Source: Halobellus captivus
GTDB lineage: Archaea; Halobacteriota; Halobacteria; Halobacteriales; Haloferacaceae
Reading direction: 5' to 3'
Assembly: GCF_003697845.1 (NCBI RefSeq)
Contig: NZ_RDQE01000008.1
Location: forward strand, 124,001 to 188,000
Length of the DNA stretch: 64,000 nucleotides
Shown: in pieces, positions 2,599 through 40,193 of the stretch
Numbering within the stretch: position 1 is the stretch's first letter
How the letters are laid out: every line of letters starts with the position of its first letter
Notes under the pieces: generated by a model
What the model was told of the DNA's origin: nothing
The model's input: the letters and a program-made list of their open reading frames with translations, nothing else
Databases searched by the model: none
Position numbers and translations under genes: made by a program

Positions 2599-3696
2599 TC
2601 AGAGCAGCCCGTCGAACGTGCCGTCCGCGAGTCCCGGACCGTCGGGTACCTCTATCCGGCCGCCGTCGATCGCGCAGGGGTCGGCCGCAAGGTCCGAAGA
2701 GAGCAGCTCGGCGGTCGCGAGTCCACAGGGGAGGACGTCCGGAACCGCGCTCGCGACGTGGACGGCCGCGGTCCGCGCGACGACGGCGTCGATCGTCGTC
2801 GTGACCACCGGATCGACCCCGTTCTCTCGCGCCCGAAGCGCCGCGTCGAGCGCGCGGTCCGGCCCGCCGAGCGCCATCGGCTTGATAACGAGCACGTCAG
2901 CGGCGTCCGAATCGAGGACGGCCTCGACGGACCGCTCCGCGAGCGACTCGTCGAGCGCGATCGGCACGTCGCTCGCCGCGCGAAGGTCGGCGGTCCCGGC
3001 GAGGTCCGCCGCCGGCAGCGGTTGTTCGACGTACGCGGGATCGAGCGGCTCCAGCCGGTCGAGCGCGCGCCGGGCGCTCGACCGGTTCCACGCGCCGTTC
3101 GCGTCCACGCGGAGGGCGATCGCCGGACCGACCGCCTGCCGCACGGACCGAAGCCGGTCGAGGTCCTCCTCCAGCGTGCGTGCGCCCGCTTTCACCTTCA
3201 GACAGCGGTAGCCGTCCTCGACCGCGCGCTCCGCGGCCGCCGCCGTCGACTCCGGAGCGCCGTCTCCGACCGTGGCGTTCACCGGGACGGAGCCGGCCGG
3301 TTCCGGGAGTTCCGATCGGTCGACGCGGCGAACGCGCTCCGCGAGGTGGGCGGCCAGCGACCGGCCGGCGTCGCGGGCGGCCGCGTCGTCGAGCGCGAGC
3401 GCGAGTCCGTGGCGGGCGGCGGGCGTCTCGCGGGCATCGAGATCGGCGAGGACGGCTCCCTGACGGGTCGGCTCCGCGGCCGCCTCGCGGAGGGCGGCCT
3501 CACACGCCGGGAGCGACTCGGTCCAGCCGGGCAGCGGCGTCGCCTCGCCGATCCCGGTCGTGCGTGCGTCTCCGAACGCCTCTCCGTCGGCCTTGGGACC
3601 CCCGACCGCGACGAGGAACCCCTCCCGTTCGGTCAGTTCCTCGCGGGCGGTTCGCAGGGGACTCGCGAGCGCGAGGGAGAAGGGGCGGAGCCGCAT
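2599..3696 (-). CDS. menC: o-succinylbenzoate synthase (enolase superfamily)
   Basis: The enzyme dehydrates SHCHC to o-succinylbenzoate in menaquinone synthesis. The 365-residue sequence has an N-terminal capping domain and a muconate-lactonizing barrel: the KxK catalytic lysine (CLKVKAG), metal ligands at LRVDANGAW, VEQPL and ALDES, and the second lysine in VLVIKP. These are the marks of the MenC/MLE subgroup. The start ATG overlaps the TGA of menA by one base (TGATG), so the two are very probably one transcript and translationally coupled. An N-succinylamino-acid racemase activity cannot be excluded from sequence, but the pairing with menA supports MenC. Confidence 0.85.
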   Translation of the reverse strand: MRLRPFSLALASPLRTAREELTEREGFLVAVGGPKADGEAFGDARTTGIGEATPLPGWTESLPACEAALREAAAEPTRQGAVLADLDARETPAARHGLALALDDAAARDAGRSLAAHLAERVRRVDRSELPEPAGSVPVNATVGDGAPESTAAAAERAVEDGYRCLKVKAGARTLEEDLDRLRSVRQAVGPAIALRVDANGAWNRSSARRALDRLEPLDPAYVEQPLPAADLAGTADLRAASDVPIALDESLAERSVEAVLDSDAADVLVIKPMALGGPDRALDAALRARENGVDPVVTTTIDAVVARTAAVHVASAVPDVLPCGLATAELLSSDLAADPCAIDGGRIEVPDGPGLADGTFDGLL

Positions 3697-4625
3697 CAGA
3701 CCGCGAGGCCGACGGCGAACGCGACCGCGTACGCCGCGAGCAGTTTCCCCGTCGACTCCAGCGCCGGGTTGAGCGCGTCGCCGGAGGTCTCGGTCAGGAC
3801 GGTTCGGGCGACGGCGACCGCGAGCGGGAGGGTGACGAGCGGGAGGAGCGAAGCGAGGCCGTCCCCGTTCGCGTAGAACCAGAACGGGGTCGCGTACGCG
3901 AGCGAGAGGAGGCCGACGTACTGGGCCCGCGAGAACCGGTAGCCGAACCGGACGGCGAGGGTCCGCTTGCCGGTCTCGCCGTCCTCCTCGCGGTCGCGGA
4001 CGTTGTTGACGACGAGGATGTTCGTCGAGAGCGCGGCCACCGGGAGGCTGGCGACCGCGGCCGCGAGCGTGACGGTTCCGTCGGGGACCCACAGCGGGAA
4101 CGCTCCACCCACCAGCGAGGCCGCCTGGACGTAGTAGGTCCCCGTGACCGCGATCAGCCCGAAGAAGACGAAGACGAAGACGTCGCCGAGGCCGTGATAC
4201 CCCAGCGGGTAGGGGCCGCCGGTGTAGGCGATGCCCGCGGCGACGGACGCCAGCCCGATGACGAGGATCGGAACGCCGCCGACGTAGACGAGGTACGTGC
4301 CGACGCCGATCGCGGCCGCGAACGTCAGCCACATCGCGCGTTTGACCTCCGTCGGCTCGATGAGGCCGCTGGCGACGACGCGGGTGAACCCCTCGCGATC
4401 GTCGGTGTCCGCGCCCTGGATCGCGTCGTAGTAGTCGTTCGCGAAGTTGGTCCCGATCTGGATCAGCGCCGCGCCGACGAACGCCGCGAGCGCCGGGAGC
4501 GGGGCGAACGTCCCGGCCCCGATCGCGAGCCCGACGCCGACGATCACCGGGGCGGCCGCCGCGGGCAGCGTCTGTGGTCGCGCGGCGATCACCCACGCCC
4601 GCCGACGCGACACCTCCGTAGCCAT
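3696..4625 (-). CDS. menA: 1,4-dihydroxy-2-naphthoate polyprenyltransferase (UbiA family)
   Basis: This 309-residue integral membrane enzyme attaches the isoprenoid tail to dihydroxynaphthoate in menaquinone synthesis. It has about eight hydrophobic segments. The two Asp-rich prenyl-diphosphate motifs are visible: NFANDYYDAIQG (about residue 60) and NNVRDREEDGETGKR (about 200). ATG 4625 (MATEVSRRR) is chosen over upstream frames because a TTAAGG box lies about 29 bases upstream (4651-4658), giving a leaderless or nearly leaderless mRNA. Its stop overlaps the menC start, which identifies the substrate better than the sequence alone. Confidence 0.88.
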   Translation of the reverse strand: MATEVSRRRAWVIAARPQTLPAAAAPVIVGVGLAIGAGTFAPLPALAAFVGAALIQIGTNFANDYYDAIQGADTDDREGFTRVVASGLIEPTEVKRAMWLTFAAAIGVGTYLVYVGGVPILVIGLASVAAGIAYTGGPYPLGYHGLGDVFVFVFFGLIAVTGTYYVQAASLVGGAFPLWVPDGTVTLAAAVASLPVAALSTNILVVNNVRDREEDGETGKRTLAVRFGYRFSRAQYVGLLSLAYATPFWFYANGDGLASLLPLVTLPLAVAVARTVLTETSGDALNPALESTGKLLAAYAVAFAVGLAV

Positions 4626-31911: not shown

Positions 31912-32528
31912 CGTTGATCCTCACCCGAGACGTCGTCCCGTGCGGTCCTCGAGACGGAGAGGACCGTAGCCACGTGACCGCTACGTCGGCTCGTCGAGTC
32001 CGATCGAACGCGGGCCGAGGTTCGATCGACGGTCGATCCGTCGCTCACCGACGGGCCGGTGGTCGATCCGTCGTTCACTGATGGATCGTGTGTCGACGTG
32101 TCGTTTGTTGACGTGTCGTTTCCGTCCGTCTCGTTCGTTGGCGTCTCCCGTGCCGTGTCGTCCGGCGTCGGATCGGTCGGCGCTTCGTCGTCCGTCCCCT
32201 TGTCGTCGCCCGCTTCGTCGTCCGTCACTTCGCCGTCGTGGGGGTCGCTGTCGTCGGGTGTCCCCCCGTTTTTCCGCTCCGCCTCCGAGGCCGGTCCCTC
32301 GTCCCCTTCGACCTCGGTTCCGGTCGCGGTCGTCTCCACGGTCGGCGTTCCATCCCCCGCGAAGTCCGGATCCGGGTCTTCCGGAACGTTCCCGACGGAG
32401 ACCGTCACGGCGACGTTTCCGGCGTCCGTGAACGTGGCGTGCGTCACGGCTCCACCCGAGACCGTGGCGAACACCAACGCGGCCGCGGAGGCGAGCGCCA
32501 GGAACTTCGAGGAGGTGTCGTCACTCAT
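31908..32528 (-). CDS. TasA/camelysin-like secreted protein with Thr/Asp-rich stalk
   Basis: The 206-residue protein starts with a hydrophobic signal (KFLALASAAALVFATVSGGA) followed by THATFTDAGNVAVTVSVGNV, the pattern seen just after the signal in TasA and camelysin-type proteins. The rest is a low-complexity, Asp/Thr/Glu-rich tail with NDTST/NDGST-like repeats and no visible domain. It overlaps the signal peptidase gene by eight bases, so it is likely one of its substrates. It has no twin-arginine motif, unlike the five paralogs upstream. Confidence 0.55.
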   Translation of the reverse strand: MSDDTSSKFLALASAAALVFATVSGGAVTHATFTDAGNVAVTVSVGNVPEDPDPDFAGDGTPTVETTATGTEVEGDEGPASEAERKNGGTPDDSDPHDGEVTDDEAGDDKGTDDEAPTDPTPDDTARETPTNETDGNDTSTNDTSTHDPSVNDGSTTGPSVSDGSTVDRTSARVRSDSTSRRSGHVATVLSVSRTARDDVSGEDQR

Positions 32529-33651
32529 CGTCAGCCCCCCGTGCCTCGTTTCCCTCCGTCTCGCTGCTCAGTGACGGACCCCGTGCCTCCTCGATACCCA
32601 GATCGTCAGGCGCCGGGATCGATCCGCCCTCGCCGTCGGCCCGGGCGATGTGCTTCGGGCGTCCCGTCTCACGTGAAACCCCGTCGTCGCCGTCCTGCGG
32701 TCGATCGTCGACGCGAGCGGCCGTCTCCCGTCCCGTGGTCCGGTCGTCGTCGCCGGGATCAGTTTCTCCCGCGGCGTAGTACATCCCGCCCACGAGCAGG
32801 AGTCCGAAGCCGGATCCGAACGCGACCGCGAACGACCACGCGGTCTGGACGTGGTACACGACCCAGCCGGCGTATGCGGTGGTTCCCACGAGGACGAGAC
32901 CCGAAAGGCGGAGGTCCGTTCGCGTGATCGCGATCGGCTCTCCGCTCGGCTCCGCGTCCTCGCTCGCGTCGACGGGCGTCCTCGCACTCGATCGATCGTC
33001 GGTCCCCTCGTCGTCGACCGATGCGGCCTCGAACGGTCCCATCGGTGGAGCCTCCGTGGAACCGGCGTCCGGATCCGACTCCCCGTCCCCTGCCGTGCGG
33101 TCGGAATCGGTCTCCTCGGCTGCTCCGGCCGCTCCGGTACCTCCGTCGTTCCCGAGCACGGATCGAACCTCCGAGAGCGCGAGCAGGACGAACGGGACCA
33201 CGACGAGCGCGAGGAAGCCCGTCGGCGTGTTCACGAACTCGATCACGTAGCCCATGTACGGGATCACGACGGCGACCTCGCCGAGGACCTGTGATTCCGG
33301 AACGGGCGCGGAGTCCGGATCGTCGTTGGCGTCGCCCTGGGTGATGAAGGCGCGTTCCCCGCTCCGTTCCGTGACGTCGATGACGCGGTGGGTCGTGGGC
33401 GTCTCCGCGTCGGTACGGAGGTACGTGATGACGTCACCCTCCTCGATCTCGGCCGGGGTCACGTCGTCGACGATGACGACGTCACCCACGCCGATCGACG
33501 GCTCCATGCTACCGGACAACACCACGTATCCCCCCTGCGCGCCGACGACTCCGGGGACCGCGTAGACGACGAACGGAGCTACGAGGGCGATCAGCAACAG
33601 CAGTCCGGCCCAGTCGAGCATTCGTCCGCGGTCGGGAAGATCCACCGTCAT
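32521..33651 (-). CDS. SipW-like (ER-type) signal peptidase I
   Basis: This 376-residue membrane protease has a TM helix at residues 13-38, the catalytic Ser48 in VLSGSMEPSIGVGDVVIV and the His88 dyad partner in PTTHRVIDV. The Ser-His dyad is that of archaeal and SipW signal peptidases rather than the Ser-Lys bacterial one. A second TM (about 135-155), then two more near residues 245-290, frame a long acidic linker. The C-terminal 85 residues are acidic and disordered. It is embedded among SipW-type signal proteins, so they are its presumed substrates. Confidence 0.82.
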   Translation of the reverse strand: MTVDLPDRGRMLDWAGLLLLIALVAPFVVYAVPGVVGAQGGYVVLSGSMEPSIGVGDVVIVDDVTPAEIEEGDVITYLRTDAETPTTHRVIDVTERSGERAFITQGDANDDPDSAPVPESQVLGEVAVVIPYMGYVIEFVNTPTGFLALVVVPFVLLALSEVRSVLGNDGGTGAAGAAEETDSDRTAGDGESDPDAGSTEAPPMGPFEAASVDDEGTDDRSSARTPVDASEDAEPSGEPIAITRTDLRLSGLVLVGTTAYAGWVVYHVQTAWSFAVAFGSGFGLLLVGGMYYAAGETDPGDDDRTTGRETAARVDDRPQDGDDGVSRETGRPKHIARADGEGGSIPAPDDLGIEEARGPSLSSETEGNEARGADDE

Positions 33652-35505: not shown

Positions 35506-37134
35506 CTAGTTCGTACCGTTGCCGTCCGGGCCGCTTCCGTCGTTGTGGCGGCACTGTTCGGTGTAGAACCCGAGGTCGAACCCGACGGAATCTCCCTGGA
35601 TGACGTTCCCGACTTCCGTCGAGACCTCCCACTCGAAGCCGATACAGAAGCCCTCCTGGGCGGGGAAACACTCGACATCGTCGCCGTCGTTCGGATCGGC
35701 GTCCAACCCGAGCATCCCCGAGAAGTCGTCGGATTCCTCGTCGGCACCCTCCGCGACACCGAGTTCGTCCATCAATCCGGCGAGCGTGCCCTCGAAGATC
35801 GGCGTCTCCATCTCCTCGTCGTAGGTGTTGTCACAGTCGTCGTCGTACCAGAGCGTCACGTCGACGTAGTCGGCGAGGGTTCCGGTGTCGTCGCTCTCCG
35901 TGACCGAGCCCGGATCCGATTCGTTCATCGCGACGCGCTCCGGCTCGGTCAGCGTTCCACCGTCCTGCGAGAAGTTGCCCGCCATGAACCAGACGTAGCC
36001 GGGGTTGTCACACAGGTGAAGCGAGAACGTTATCTCGCCCGTGTCTCCCGGTTTGACGTCGTCGAGCTCGACCAGGTGTTCCTGATCCGGGTAGTTCTGA
36101 CTCCGGAAGACGGCGGGCGTGTCAAGTTCCGCACCGCTGTCGATGCCGCAGGAGCTGTGGATGACGATCGGGTCGAGATCACCGTCTGTTCCGACAGTAT
36201 CCTCGAGGACTACCTCTGTGGATGTATCTCCATCAAGGAGCACCAATCGTTCGATATCGGTCTGATCCTGGAAGACCGAGTTTCCATCATACGTAGCCGC
36301 GTTGTTCAACGCCGGAGTAACCCGTAGAGCGAAATCTTCATCTAATGTACCGAGAACGCCGCCGTCGGTTTTCCTATTCTGCCAAGCCCAGTCAGCCGTC
36401 GCGACGTTGCTTCCATTGGCGTCCTGATATGCGTCGATGTCGGTACCAGGTTCGTCCTGATCTATCCACGCCGCGTTTAACCACTGGCTACCCTCAGCAC
36501 CTTCGACAGTGACTGAAGCGACGAATCCGTTATCGGAGCTCCTGGTGTTGTCGAGTTCATTGTTGATTATGAATAGGTGTATATCACCCTCATCGTCTTC
36601 ATACAGGAAGAGAACGGTCGTGTTCCGTCGCTGAATGTCATCATTCAGTGACGACCACTCCCCCGTATCGTAATCGTAGAATTCATCCGTGCTTTCGTCC
36701 CCCGAGATAGCGCTGACACAGTACGACTCGCCGCCGTACGTGACGTAGTACTCGTCCTCCGCACAGTCACAGCAGGCGGGGACGTCGGCCGCGTCGAACA
36801 CGGGATCCAACTCGCCGGCACCGGAGTACCGGACGCCGTCGAGGTCCTGGAGTCCGTCGCCGTAGCTCTGGCCGTCGACCGCGGTATCCGGGTAGGCGTT
36901 CACCGGGTGTTCGCCGACCTCGCCGTCACCGTTCGGGATCGGCCCGTTGTAGGTCTGTTGCCAGTCGACCTTCAGGTCCAACTCCCCCGCGGACAGCGAG
37001 TTGTTCTCGAACGATTCCTCGTCGCTGAAGTAGGCGCTCGTGCCGAGGCCGGCACCGGCGCTCGCGACGCCGACCCCACCGAGGGCCGCCAGCGCCTTCC
37101 GACGCGAGAGTTGAAATCCGTCGTTGCGTTCCAT
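35506..37134 (-). CDS. SipW-type secreted protein with Cys-rich inserted domain (P1)
   Basis: The 542-residue product opens with a twin-arginine SipW signal (LSRRKALAALGG, then GTSAYFSDEESFE). The core has VELDDVKPGDTGEITFSLHLCDNPGY (about 355-380), DVTLWYDDDCDN, FEGTLAGLMDELG and FCIGFEWEVSTEVGNVIQGD-like end segments with LGFYTEQCRHN. Residues about 120-335 are an extra module beginning PACCDCAEDEYYVTYGG; its DNA (about 36180-36720) is visibly poorer in GC. I do not recognise the module. ATG 37134 is used; ATG 37143 would add three residues. Confidence 0.68.
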   Translation of the reverse strand: MERNDGFQLSRRKALAALGGVGVASAGAGLGTSAYFSDEESFENNSLSAGELDLKVDWQQTYNGPIPNGDGEVGEHPVNAYPDTAVDGQSYGDGLQDLDGVRYSGAGELDPVFDAADVPACCDCAEDEYYVTYGGESYCVSAISGDESTDEFYDYDTGEWSSLNDDIQRRNTTVLFLYEDDEGDIHLFIINNELDNTRSSDNGFVASVTVEGAEGSQWLNAAWIDQDEPGTDIDAYQDANGSNVATADWAWQNRKTDGGVLGTLDEDFALRVTPALNNAATYDGNSVFQDQTDIERLVLLDGDTSTEVVLEDTVGTDGDLDPIVIHSSCGIDSGAELDTPAVFRSQNYPDQEHLVELDDVKPGDTGEITFSLHLCDNPGYVWFMAGNFSQDGGTLTEPERVAMNESDPGSVTESDDTGTLADYVDVTLWYDDDCDNTYDEEMETPIFEGTLAGLMDELGVAEGADEESDDFSGMLGLDADPNDGDDVECFPAQEGFCIGFEWEVSTEVGNVIQGDSVGFDLGFYTEQCRHNDGSGPDGNGTN

Positions 37135-37143
37135 GATTGTCAT

Positions 37144-37155
37144 CCCCGTCCGGGG
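37144..37155 (-). promoter_or_regulatory. GC hairpin before the P1 start
   Basis: CCCC-GTCC-GGGG forms a four-base stem whose 3' arm (GGGG in the mRNA) lies about ten bases before the P1 start. The arm is also the best Shine-Dalgarno-like stretch, so the stem could hide the ribosome site. The same arrangement is seen before P2 (38791-38802). Confidence 0.4.
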
Positions 37156-37157
37156 AA

Positions 37158-37196
37158 ACCCACCGGCGGAGTCGAACCGCCGTACACCATGTGGGT
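37158..37196 (-). ncRNA. tRNA T-arm-like structured element in the P1 leader
   Basis: Read on the minus strand, an outer stem ACCCAC/GTGGGT (6 bp) encloses an inner stem GGCGG/CCGCC with loop TTCGACT. The inner hairpin has all tRNA T-arm consensus positions (TTCRANY, closing G-C). No D-arm or anticodon arm precedes it, so it is not a tRNA gene. The same element lies in the P2 leader with substitutions confined to the linker. Confidence 0.5.
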
Positions 37197-37207
37197 CGAG
37201 ACCGCGT

Positions 37208-37236
37208 TTCGGGTTCCGGCTCTGCCGAAACCCGAA
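37208..37236 (-). terminator. intercistronic hairpin between P2 and P1
   Basis: TTCGGGTTCCGGC and GCCGAAACCCGAA form a 13-bp stem with a three-base loop (TCT on the plus strand), with one G-U pair in the minus-strand RNA. It lies 16 bases after the P2 stop. No U-tract follows, so RNA processing or 3'-end protection is as likely as termination. Confidence 0.4.
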
Positions 37237-37251
37237 GGTCGCATACACTGT

Positions 37252-38781
37252 TCAGTCGGATGCGTTTGCGGTCCCGTTGGACGGGAGTCCGTTGTCGTCC
37301 TGGTACGTCCCGTTGAACGGCTCCGCCGGCGGGTCGTCGTTGTGCCGGCTCTGGAGCGCGTAGAACCCGAGATCGAAGGCGACGGAGTCCGTCTGGACCT
37401 CGTTGCCGACGTCGGCCGGAAGCTCCCACTCGAAGCCGAGACAGTGGGTCATCCCGCCCGCGAACGGTTCGTCTTCTTCGGTGGAACGATTCCCATCGAG
37501 TGCGATCCCCTCCTCGAGTTCAGCCATGACCTCCGCGAGCGATCCCGACTCGATCACTTCTTCACCTTCGGTAATCGTCTCACTGACCTGACTGAAGAGC
37601 GACTCAATATTACCTGTTGAAGTACCCGAGAAGACGTGAGAGTCCACAGGCTCACTTGCAATATTTTCAAGTTGACTCTGATTAGCACCAGCAACCCCGA
37701 TCGCGAACACCTCAATATCGTTGTCTTTTGCGGTCTGTGCTTGTGATTCAGCTACACTCGGATCGTCAAACCCTCCATCAGTGAAGACGACCATTATACG
37801 GTCATGTCCTTCCGGACAGTTCTCAAGATCCTGCCTCGCAAGCTCGATGCCCTCACCTGCGTACGTCTGCTGTCCACTCACTGGGCTAATATCAGCAGAC
37901 GTATATGGGTCAGTGACACTGTTGGCAACGTTTGCTTCACCCGTACTTTGGAACGTAGTGTAACCCACGCTGCTATCGTCGTTATTGTTCAGTACTGTGT
38001 TCGCTAACTGATCGGCTCCAGTTTCAACGTCGTCTTCAGCGTCACTTCCACCGACCACGAGTGATCCGGACTCATCGAGAACCATCTGTACACAGAGCGG
38101 GTTTCCTCCCGACTCCTCACCGCCATCCAGGACGTTGTTACAGTTCTCGTCGTACCAGAGCGTGGTCTCGATCTTGTCGGCGAGCTCGCCGTCACCGTCG
38201 ATCGAGGTATCTGTCTCGTCGTTATTCTCCTCGTCCGATTCCGCCTCCGGTTCCGTCACCGTGTTCTCATCGTTGGCCGTCAACTCCCCGTTCATGTACA
38301 TCCACGCGGGATTGTCACAGATGTGGAGACTGACGGTGACTTCGCCGGAATCACCGGGTTTGACGTCGTCTAGCGTGAAGACGGGGATCTCGTCGCCGTT
38401 GATCAGGCCGAGATCGGGCGCACAGAGGTCCGTCTCTTGGACCTCGTCTTCCCAGATGTCGTCCGTTGCGTCCGGAACTTCACCGATAAGGTAGGTTCCT
38501 TCCTCACCATCGACCTCCGTGACATTGAACGGCTCGCCGGGTCCTTCGTCGCTGTACCAGCCGTCTATCTCGTCGAGCCGCCCGGGACCGCCCGCGTACG
38601 TCGCCTTGTAGTCGAGTTTTAGGTCGAGCTCGCCAGCCGTCAGCGAGTTGTCCTCGAACGATTCCTCGTCGCTGAAGTAGGCGCTCGTGCCGAGGCCGGC
38701 ACCGGCGCTCGCGACGCCGATCCCGCCGATCCCGGCGAGTGCCTTCCGCCGTGATATTTCGAGTCCGTTTTTGTCGCTCAT
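37252..38781 (-). CDS. SipW-type secreted protein with von Willebrand A domain (P2)
   Basis: The 509-residue product has the signal EISRRKALAGIGG and GTSAYFSDEESFE, and the fibre core (FTLDDVKPGDSGEVTVSLH, KIETTLWYDENCNNVLDG, CLGFEWELPADVGNEVQTD, FDLGFYALQSRHND). Between LDGGE (about 222) and SGSLAEVMAELEEG (about 412) a vWA domain is inserted: MIDAS DESGS at 236-240, YTTF near 275 and FTDGG at 333-337. vWA domains bind ligands through a metal ion and often mediate adhesion. The inserted DNA (about 37580-38100) is poorer in GC than the flanks. P2 is thus the candidate adhesive subunit. Confidence 0.72.
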   Translation of the reverse strand: MSDKNGLEISRRKALAGIGGIGVASAGAGLGTSAYFSDEESFEDNSLTAGELDLKLDYKATYAGGPGRLDEIDGWYSDEGPGEPFNVTEVDGEEGTYLIGEVPDATDDIWEDEVQETDLCAPDLGLINGDEIPVFTLDDVKPGDSGEVTVSLHICDNPAWMYMNGELTANDENTVTEPEAESDEENNDETDTSIDGDGELADKIETTLWYDENCNNVLDGGEESGGNPLCVQMVLDESGSLVVGGSDAEDDVETGADQLANTVLNNNDDSSVGYTTFQSTGEANVANSVTDPYTSADISPVSGQQTYAGEGIELARQDLENCPEGHDRIMVVFTDGGFDDPSVAESQAQTAKDNDIEVFAIGVAGANQSQLENIASEPVDSHVFSGTSTGNIESLFSQVSETITEGEEVIESGSLAEVMAELEEGIALDGNRSTEEDEPFAGGMTHCLGFEWELPADVGNEVQTDSVAFDLGFYALQSRHNDDPPAEPFNGTYQDDNGLPSNGTANASD

Positions 38782-38790
38782 GCTTGTCAC

Positions 38791-38802
38791 CCCCCAAGGG
38801 GG
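38791..38802 (-). promoter_or_regulatory. GC hairpin before the P2 start
   Basis: CCCCC-AA-GGGGG forms a tight GC stem, in the mRNA CCCCC-TT-GGGGG. The 3' arm is followed by GTGACAAGC and the ATG, so it overlaps the likely ribosome site. Compare the P1 leader hairpin at 37144-37155. Confidence 0.4.
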
Positions 38803-38803
38803 A

Positions 38804-38844
38804 AACCCACCGGCGGAGTCGAACCGCCGTGCTCCAAGTGGGTT
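38804..38844 (-). ncRNA. tRNA T-arm-like structured element in the P2 leader
   Basis: The minus strand shows outer stem AACCCAC/GTGGGTT (7 bp) around inner stem GGCGG/CCGCC with the loop TTCGACT, the same as in the P1 leader. The linker between outer and inner 5' arms is nine bases in both (TTGGAGCAC here, ATGGTGTAC there). It starts 12 bases after the P3 stop codon. Confidence 0.5.
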
Positions 38845-38855
38845 AAATTCCGACT

Positions 38856-40193
38856 CTACGATTCGCTAACTTCGACGTATTCGGTGCTCTCCGTGAAGTT
38901 TGGACTATTGTCCGAATCGGTCGAGATCTCCACGACGGGGCCTTCTCCTCCGGTTGAACCCCAAGTGGATAGCTTGAACGACGATCCGAGTTCGCTCCTC
39001 GGAACTCCCCACGTTATACTGTCACCGGTTTTGACAGCATTCCAGTTATTCGGGAGCTCCACGTACGCGCCGGGCGAGCCGTCACTGTTGTCGTGCTCCC
39101 GCTTCGCAAACGGTGCGCTATCGAGTGGATCGACGTTCTGTGGAGAGTTCGTATTCCAGATGAGTTGGAAATCAGTGAACCCGTTCTCGTCGGCATCGAT
39201 CATCACAGGGAGATTCGTGCTCGAATAGTCCGACGTGTCGGCGAAATCGACGCCGTCGTCGTCGTCTTGGAAGTCGAACCTGAGGGCCACTGTATCGTCG
39301 CTCCAGCTAACGTTCGCCACAAGAGTCCCATTGGTCGGGTTACCGTGCCCACTGGGATTGTAGTAATCCGCGGTGGCGACCGCATCGACGTAGGGGTTGT
39401 TCGGGTCGTCGTTGTGACGGGACTGCTGAGCCGTGAATCCGATGTCGAACTCGACCGAGTCGGACTGGATCACGTTGCCGACGGTGGTCGGCACGTTCCA
39501 GTCGATACAGAGACACGGTCCCGTCTGGGTGTCAGAATCGGGACTAGCCGGATACGCGCCGTCGTCCGTCGGCACCCACTGGTCGTCATCCTCCTCCAGC
39601 CCATCCAACAGATAGCCCGTCTGAAGTTCCAGGAGGAGGTCCGCGAGCGTGTAGTCTTCCGGATTGTTGAGTTCGCGGACCGTCTCGAAATCGTCGGGGG
39701 CGCTCGGTTCGTCAACGGTCGGTTCACAGTACGCGACCGTGACTTGGATGTTATCCGCGAGTTCACCGTTGCCCGGGCCGGGGTCACCGCCCGTGTCGTC
39801 GACGTCCTCCTCGGGCTCGGTCAGGCCGTTCTCGTACTGGGTGAACCCGGTACTCCCCGCCCACAGCCACGCGGGGTTATCGACGATCTTCGGACAGAAC
39901 ACCAGCTTGCCCGAGTCGCCGGGCTTGACGTCGTTGAGGACGTACTGCGCCGACACGCCGCCGTCGTTCTGGCCGCTTCCAGTCGTTCCTCCGGCGATCG
40001 CCTCGGAGTTGGCGTCCGTCCAGTAGTCGACGAAGAGGTCCAACTCGCCCGCCTCGAGCGTGTTGTCCTCGAAGCCCTCCTCGTCGCTGAAGTACGCGCT
40101 CGTTCCGAGGCCCGCACCCGCGGAGGCGGCCCCCACGGTCCCGAGCCCGATCAGTGCGTTCCGCCGTGACAGTTCGAATCTCTTGTCTGACAT
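38856..40193 (-). CDS. SipW-type secreted protein with C-terminal beta domain (P3)
   Basis: This 445-residue protein is the first gene of the cluster in transcription order. The signal is ELSRRNALIGLGTVGAASAG with GTSAYFSDEEGFE. The core runs to about residue 262 (VLNDVKPGDSGKLVFCPKIVDNPAW, DNIQVTVAYCEPTVD, LCIDWNVPTTVGNVIQSD, FDIGFTAQQSRHND). About 180 residues follow with a beta-sandwich look (VANVSWSDDTVALRFDF, PVMIDADENGFTDFQLIWN, GSSFKLSTWGS), which recalls DOMON/CBM9-type domains; that is a guess. The DNA of the extension (38870-39330) is low in GC. Confidence 0.66.
   Translation of the reverse strand: MSDKRFELSRRNALIGLGTVGAASAGAGLGTSAYFSDEEGFEDNTLEAGELDLFVDYWTDANSEAIAGGTTGSGQNDGGVSAQYVLNDVKPGDSGKLVFCPKIVDNPAWLWAGSTGFTQYENGLTEPEEDVDDTGGDPGPGNGELADNIQVTVAYCEPTVDEPSAPDDFETVRELNNPEDYTLADLLLELQTGYLLDGLEEDDDQWVPTDDGAYPASPDSDTQTGPCLCIDWNVPTTVGNVIQSDSVEFDIGFTAQQSRHNDDPNNPYVDAVATADYYNPSGHGNPTNGTLVANVSWSDDTVALRFDFQDDDDGVDFADTSDYSSTNLPVMIDADENGFTDFQLIWNTNSPQNVDPLDSAPFAKREHDNSDGSPGAYVELPNNWNAVKTGDSITWGVPRSELGSSFKLSTWGSTGGEGPVVEISTDSDNSPNFTESTEYVEVSES

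Follow-up and report, generated by a model that had tools for sequence, protein, structure and literature searches.

A few systems are known in which an mRNA contains tRNA-like structures, and tRNA mimicry within longer transcripts is also found in viral 3′ tRNA-like structures and mascRNA-type RNAs, which mark the 3′ ends of eukaryotic transcripts, whereas the element considered here is internal and stands before a start codon. In tRNA itself, G18 and G19 of the elbow dock on T-loop positions 55 and 56, and the stack of acceptor and T stem comprises 12 bp. The t-elements of Haloferax volcanii (Hoelzle et al. 2008, 2012, as cited in PMC4326828) are likewise tRNA-like within longer haloarchaeal transcripts, and both RNase P and tRNase Z are reported to act on them (PMC4326828); the t-element described there lies upstream of the 5S rRNA, while the present one lies between protein genes. 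The yjdF riboswitch and cis-tRNA leaders (PMC9142559) likewise stand upstream of the ribosome-binding site, possess an elbow of GG and T-loop, and enhance translation. However, yjdF is a bacterial four-helix-junction aptamer, called a tRNA-Lys homologue (PMC9142559), whereas the element reported here has about 40 nt and two helices and is placed between genes.

While tRNA-like cis elements are thus already known, a minimal intercistronic elbow module present across archaea and phages is new as far as we have seen. No prior description of the element was found in the open-licence literature, and a literature search for haloarchaeal Taf fimbriae found nothing. No Rfam family reached its gathering score in the window (the whole 64-kb stretch of Halobellus captivus DNA that was analysed), and none matches the element elsewhere, the sole gathering-level match being a separate tmRNA gene on locus L201. 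A known RNA family, be it yjdF or another Rfam entry, was therefore ruled out by the lack of a covariance-model match.

The two elements and their genes

The window contains two copies of the element inside a cluster of genes on the minus strand, here given in the direction of reading:

38856–40193, minus strand: first SipW-type gene of the cluster, upstream of element 2 and itself without a preceding element
38804–38844, minus strand: element 2, with stem P1 AACCCAC/GTGGGTT, linker TTGGAGCA containing GG, and T-arm CGGCGG-TTCGACT-CCGCCG
38790–38802, minus strand: second hairpin of element 2, CCCCC-ttg-GGGGG, with a Shine-Dalgarno (SD)-like GGGGTGA in and after its 3′ arm
37252–38781, minus strand: gene P2, behind element 2, with a SipW-type signal peptide and a vWA domain; ATG at 38781
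37157–37197, minus strand: element 1, with stem P1 GACCCAC/GTGGGTT, linker ATGGTGTA containing GG, and the same T-arm as element 2
37144–37155, minus strand: second hairpin of element 1, CCCC-ggac-GGGG
35506–37143, minus strand: gene P1, behind element 1, with a SipW-type signal peptide and a stretch resembling Peptidase_M73; ATG in frame at both 37143 and 37134
32521–33651, minus strand: signal peptidase of the archaeal/SipW type, last in the cluster

An earlier note on this DNA had described two elements sharing an outer stem and a hairpin with the T-loop consensus, and both are present with their ends shifted by one or two bases; the inner hairpin was also confirmed, its six pairs (CGGCGG-TTCGACT-CCGCCG) replacing the five first reported. 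Each element is 41 nt long, with a common outer stem and a perfect T-arm, and reads 5′ to 3′ as the P1 5′ strand, an 8-nt linker, the T-arm and the P1 3′ strand GTGGGTT. The second hairpin begins almost directly after it, and the start codon follows 22 nt past element 2 and 13 or 22 nt past element 1, which has the choice of two in-frame ATGs. The covariance model introduced below (R1) scores element 2 at 60.8 bits and element 1 at 57.7 bits, both being among its seeds. The 45–48 nt cores are more stable than shuffled sequences (z = −2.34 and −2.19), and the whole leaders of about 100 nt are unremarkable against shuffles (z about −0.1). The SipW-dependent signal peptide model TIGR04088 matches genes P1 and P2 and the gene preceding them (E 2.6e-7 to 9.2e-6), and the cluster proteins are predicted TasA/Taf-like SipW-dependent exported proteins.

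The genome holds seven TIGR04088 genes, three in the window cluster and four on another contig, where a second SipW cluster (L012) carries three further copies of the element. Two of these stand 22–23 nt before SipW genes; no downstream ORF was found for the third (L012:6178-6240), in which the early GG is missing. The L012 stems are altered with compensation (TCCCAC/GTGGGA outer, GAC/GTC inner), and one copy has a long hairpin inserted between linker and T-arm. By reading of the sequences, the first gene of both clusters has no element. ARAGORN found no tRNA anywhere in the 64-kb window, at the window elements or at those of L012, and 14 short loci around the other GGTTCGACTCC sites of the genome yielded none either; a genuine or degenerate tRNA was ruled out on these grounds.

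Covariation, elbow and gene context in haloarchaea

The covariance model R1 was built from 16 seeds gathered by a T-loop pattern, so that the invariance of the T-loop is partly built in. At E values up to 0.001 it matches 137 of 392 Halobacteriales genomes, in 47 of 95 genera, and in a phylum-wide set of 196 genomes it matches 16, all within Halobacteriales. The 195 haloarchaeal matches analysed further come from 110 sources picked among the better R1 matches. In the best 150 of them (143 distinct), standard pairs fill 94.6% of the cells, and 9 of 13 pairs show double-sided changes. These amount to 121 cells, compared with 31 after shuffling, and none of 500 shuffles reaches that value; sliding the pairing partners abolishes the signal. 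The 143-element alignment was fitted to R1 and is hence biased towards the structure, but an alignment of the 16 seeds by MAFFT also covaries (4 pairs, 9 cells). The earlier note had proposed a covariation search across haloarchaeal genomes, with its failure to count against the element, and the covariation it looked for is there. Low-scoring R1 matches may be due to chance, and ARAGORN flags four of the 195 as tRNA, apparently owing to long linkers. A chance repeat is ruled out by covariation and distribution together, and the predicted fold is well supported by sequence.

The loop sequence TTCGA is present in 143 of 143 elements, partly by model selection, and agrees with the T-loop consensus TTCRANN, and all T-stem cells are paired in the R1 alignment. 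In 125 of the 143 distinct elements the linker has its first GG beginning at position 3–5, against a mean of 37 and a maximum of 53 in shuffled linkers; by reading, a GG also falls within the first eight linker positions in 22 of 24 elements collected ahead of any modelling. The statement of the earlier note that no D-arm precedes overlooked this D-loop-like GG. Since GG and T-loop are both kept, the element retains the elbow nucleotides and little else, and we infer that the GG, at the place of the D-loop, meets the T-loop as G18-G19 do. Linkers of at least 18 nt occur in 46 of 166 usable elements (of 195); the GG stays near their start in 36 of the 46, while an inner hairpin is found in 25 against 13.6 expected (maximum 22), the other 21 being without a strong one. 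One copy (L506, genome G100, before the gene at 4159) has two extra hairpins between GG and T-arm and so comes close to a cloverleaf. Such a copy could reveal by which route a tRNA gave rise to the minimal form, or the minimal form is developing into a tRNA.

Downstream of the 195 matches, the gene belongs to the class defined by a SipW regular expression in 111 cases and to the related GAFTS class in 21; 50 have another gene and 13 no ORF, so that 63 are not placed before the two main classes, and the 50 others comprise some exported proteins and some chance-like ORFs. NCBIfam models run on the downstream N-termini of a half sample (91 of 182) gave TIGR04088 in 55 and, among the fimbrial models, TafA in 18, TafE in 9 and TafC in 9. 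The distance from element to start codon is tight, with medians of 23 and 22 nt for the two classes, and that from the upstream stop codon to the element is loose (quartiles 24–56 nt, median 37 nt). Position was counted on the 132 elements before the two classes minus 5 too near the end of their locus; a co-directional ORF lies just upstream of 118 of these 127, and 96 of the 118 ORFs belong to the same classes. The elements are therefore intercistronic, and a simple leader at the start of an operon is ruled out: the earlier note had rightly placed them just before the starts of genes P1 and P2, while its term leader does not fit elements in gaps between cistrons.

A hairpin scoring at least 4 lies between stem P1 and the ATG in 104 of the 110 elements placed 15–36 nt from a start (of 129 unique), against 33% of shuffles, and by reading it usually begins 0–3 nt past stem P1. 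An SD-like motif is found near the start in 64 of the 110 and overlaps the 3′ arm of the hairpin in 57 of these 64. Compared by genome (n = 146, assumed to be the identical set G000–G145 for element and SipW searches), element and SipW genes occur together in 20, the element only in 18, SipW genes only in 24 and neither in 84 (Fisher P 8e-4), which leaves 24 of 44 SipW-bearing genomes without an R1 match.

Several loci depart from the common arrangement. Some SipW clusters have no element or have degenerate T-loops, as in L503 (genome G052), where the gap and the second hairpin are kept before the genes at 3611 and 5210 and the loop is degenerate (TTCACGA or CTCACGA); this form is perhaps a decayed or different version of the element. 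In a subgroup (L053-L056, L058, L097, L175) the T-stem is mostly GGGGG/CCCCC, the second hairpin is lacking and the end of stem P1 is 4 nt away from the ATG, which opens the gene of an exported protein of no known family. At L047:737-1360 the gene that directly follows the element encodes a SipW-type signal peptidase itself, and in L071, L075, L089 and L092 it precedes TafF/DUF1102-like proteins without an RR-type signal, pointing to a wider set of targets.

The element in viruses and phages

Haloviruses, prophages of Lactobacillaceae, T7-like cyanophages and other phage contigs show the same predicted layout. A strict pattern (CCCAC, GG, T-arm, CGGTGGG) retrieved 57 stretches from a species-genome collection, by title 53 from haloarchaea and 4 from Lactobacillaceae, where by a rough estimate less than one chance match is expected. 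Three of the 4 Lactobacillaceae stretches recur among viral contigs (L233, L235, L236) and are therefore taken as prophages, and two further phage contigs match the pattern in the viral contig collection. BLAST and R1 found the element in the haloarchaeal tailed viruses HRTV-4, BLv36 and HRTV-7 (R1 E 1.5e-6 to 3e-4), while Lactobacillus phage Lv-1 gives a weak R1 match (E 0.096) with an outer stem that is wholly different yet paired (ACCAAG/CUUGGU). The T-stem of the Lactobacillaceae prophages has one mismatch (L179, L201, L226), and in a Latilactobacillus phage copy (L239) the stems do not form.

Two looser patterns gave at least 120 matches each, and 115 were left among the matches listed, including a few haloarchaeal loci, once tRNAs had been removed and a T-stem of at least 4 required. 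Among these listed matches stem P1 scores at least 5 in 42 of the 115, against a mean of 6.0 (maximum 14) with the 5′ strands re-dealt, and at least 6 in 27 against 1.9 expected; it scores below 5 in 73, and the haloarchaeal L242, L245 and L247 are within the 42. The outer stems of phages vary freely yet stay paired, and near relatives have compensated stems (AAGUGA/UCACUU in L335, AAGUAA/UUACUU in L355); S-RIP1 (L502) joins the stem form of L355 to a hairpin inserted between GG and T-arm. A correlation of −0.36 between phage stem P1 and T-stem lengths (permutation 0.017) was left unused because the split between the two stems is ambiguous.

Viral contigs L441, L374 and L407 hold 4, 3 and 2 near-identical intercistronic copies, respectively, each about 11–25 nt before an ATG. 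In these three contigs P1 is UCCCA/UGGGA and the 7-bp T-stem shows a C-G to U-A exchange, the copies precede small genes without known function, and a BLAST search of annotated phages with the L441 element gave no match. No ORF of at least 35 aa runs across the element in 46 of 51 viral elements (two of the 51 being haloarchaeal plasmid loci), and distances to the start codon are looser in phages than in haloarchaea. Of ten classified downstream phage proteins, three are major head proteins (L261, L326, L335) and one is a DNA primase (L253), and the other six fall into families without known function or into no family; in cyanophage S-TIP37 (L500) psbA precedes the element and the capsid gene follows it. 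L261, L326, L335, L500 and L502 all belong to T7-like (cyano)phages in which the element precedes the gene of the major head protein, behind psbA in three named or typed cases.

Translation, processing or regulation

The earlier note had proposed T-arm and acceptor mimicry with control of processing or translation, a proposal that is supported so far as a conserved, covarying and gene-linked RNA is concerned. The reading that we regard as best, tentatively and with somewhat less than even confidence, is that of a minimal tRNA-elbow mimic by which the downstream cistron is better translated. Stem P1 (mostly 5–7 bp), the counterpart of the acceptor stem, runs on into the T-arm (5–6 bp and a TTCGANT loop); the strand between them holds the GG, which would dock in the T-loop like G18-G19 of tRNA, and some copies have an added arm at the place of the anticodon arm. 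Placed between neighbouring genes of an operon, with a small hairpin and then the next start codon behind it, the elbow would bind the ribosome at its mRNA-exit/E-site side and increase initiation on the downstream gene, so that each fibre-subunit or phage capsid gene would be translated independently of the preceding one. What is observed directly is the sequence with its conservation, covariation, position and linkage to genes, and from it we infer transcription of the element, its binding to the ribosome and its effect on translation; covariation, the pairing of P1 in phages, the place of the GG, the tight spacing to the start codon as opposed to the loose spacing from the stop codon, the hairpin before the ATG with its overlapping SD-like motifs, the intercistronic position, and the phage copies before capsid genes, which need high translation, all argue for this reading. 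Against it stand the looser spacing in phages, the SD-like motif in only 64 of 110 elements, the SipW-bearing genomes without an R1 match, and the expectation that RNase P and tRNase Z would also act on a tRNA-like fold carried by an mRNA.

Such cutting is the most credible alternative, possible in our judgement and held with less confidence: as a t-element, the RNA would be cut by RNase P before stem P1, by tRNase Z after it, or by both, and the operon mRNA would be split into pieces with stable ends, in the manner of tRNA punctuation. The kept elbow and the intercistronic position are consistent with it, and so is the stack of acceptor and T stem, which measures 11–13 bp in 107 of 129 elements from haloarchaea and in 37 of 39 from viruses, close to the 12 bp found in tRNA; the stack is, however, not fixed at this value, 13 bp being commonest in haloarchaea without a sharp peak at 12. 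In Haloferax, RNase P and tRNase Z are reported to cleave t-elements, and at one of these the cleavage generates the 5′ end of 5S rRNA (PMC4326828, PMC4946936). On the other hand, the second hairpin 0–3 nt past stem P1 leaves scant single strand for tRNase Z, and a tight spacing to the start codon is unexpected for a cutting site. According to PMC9142559, tRNAs placed upstream of an SD sequence raised translation 2- to 6.3-fold in vitro, exchange of GG for UU in the yjdF aptamer abolished the enhancement, and binding to the ribosomal E-site was suggested for tRNA-like leaders. It is because the elbow is kept, the element lies between genes and its distance to the next start is better conserved than that to the last stop, and because of this precedent of tRNA-like leaders and of the need for GG in yjdF, that we favour translation over cutting, and the two roles could be exerted at once.

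A riboswitch-like or protein-controlled switch, in which a ligand or protein on the elbow would free or hide the start region via the second hairpin, seems improbable. Overlap of this hairpin with most SD-like motifs (57 of 64) would suit it, as would the sharing of the element by an exported-fibre regulon, once also before the signal peptidase (L047), and the ability of the tRNA-like yjdF fold to sense ligands (PMC9142559). The downstream phage genes are nevertheless unrelated (capsid, primase, unknown), which speaks against a single metabolite, the subgroup L053-L058 has no second hairpin, and by reading the 5′ arm of the hairpin has no complementarity to stem P1 in L062 and L049. A general switch between stem P1 and the second hairpin was discarded, no common complementarity being seen by reading. 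The remaining explanation, first raised in the earlier note as a duplicated tRNA 3′-end fragment and here extended to an integrase attachment remnant spread by tandem gene duplication without RNA function, is very improbable: integrases do use tRNA 3′ ends and tandem paralogues do share the element (96 of 118 upstream genes of the same classes), but no tRNA was found at the 14 loci with the same T-arm, in the window or at L012, the stems covary by compensatory changes, including in unrelated hosts, the GG, the second hairpin and the start spacing are conserved, and the element recurs before genes of unrelated phages.

Returning to the translational reading, a bolder form of it, which we consider rather unlikely, would see in these RNAs a prokaryotic internal initiation module, that is, an unnamed minimal tRNA-elbow class of haloarchaea, their viruses and bacterial phages whose elbow recruits the ribosome, with the downstream gene (fibre subunit or capsid) translated independently. 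A tRNA-like version of about 40 nt recurs in 47 of 95 sampled Halobacteriales genera and in several unrelated phage groups, its elbow nucleotides conserved and its stems varying freely. Should the element drive translation, it would account for the way in which operons of tandem fibre or capsid genes give each gene its own expression level with no promoter of its own, and it would be a compact part for portable use in expression. Should it instead be a site of processing, prokaryotes and their viruses would be using tRNA punctuation as a general strategy for their mRNAs.
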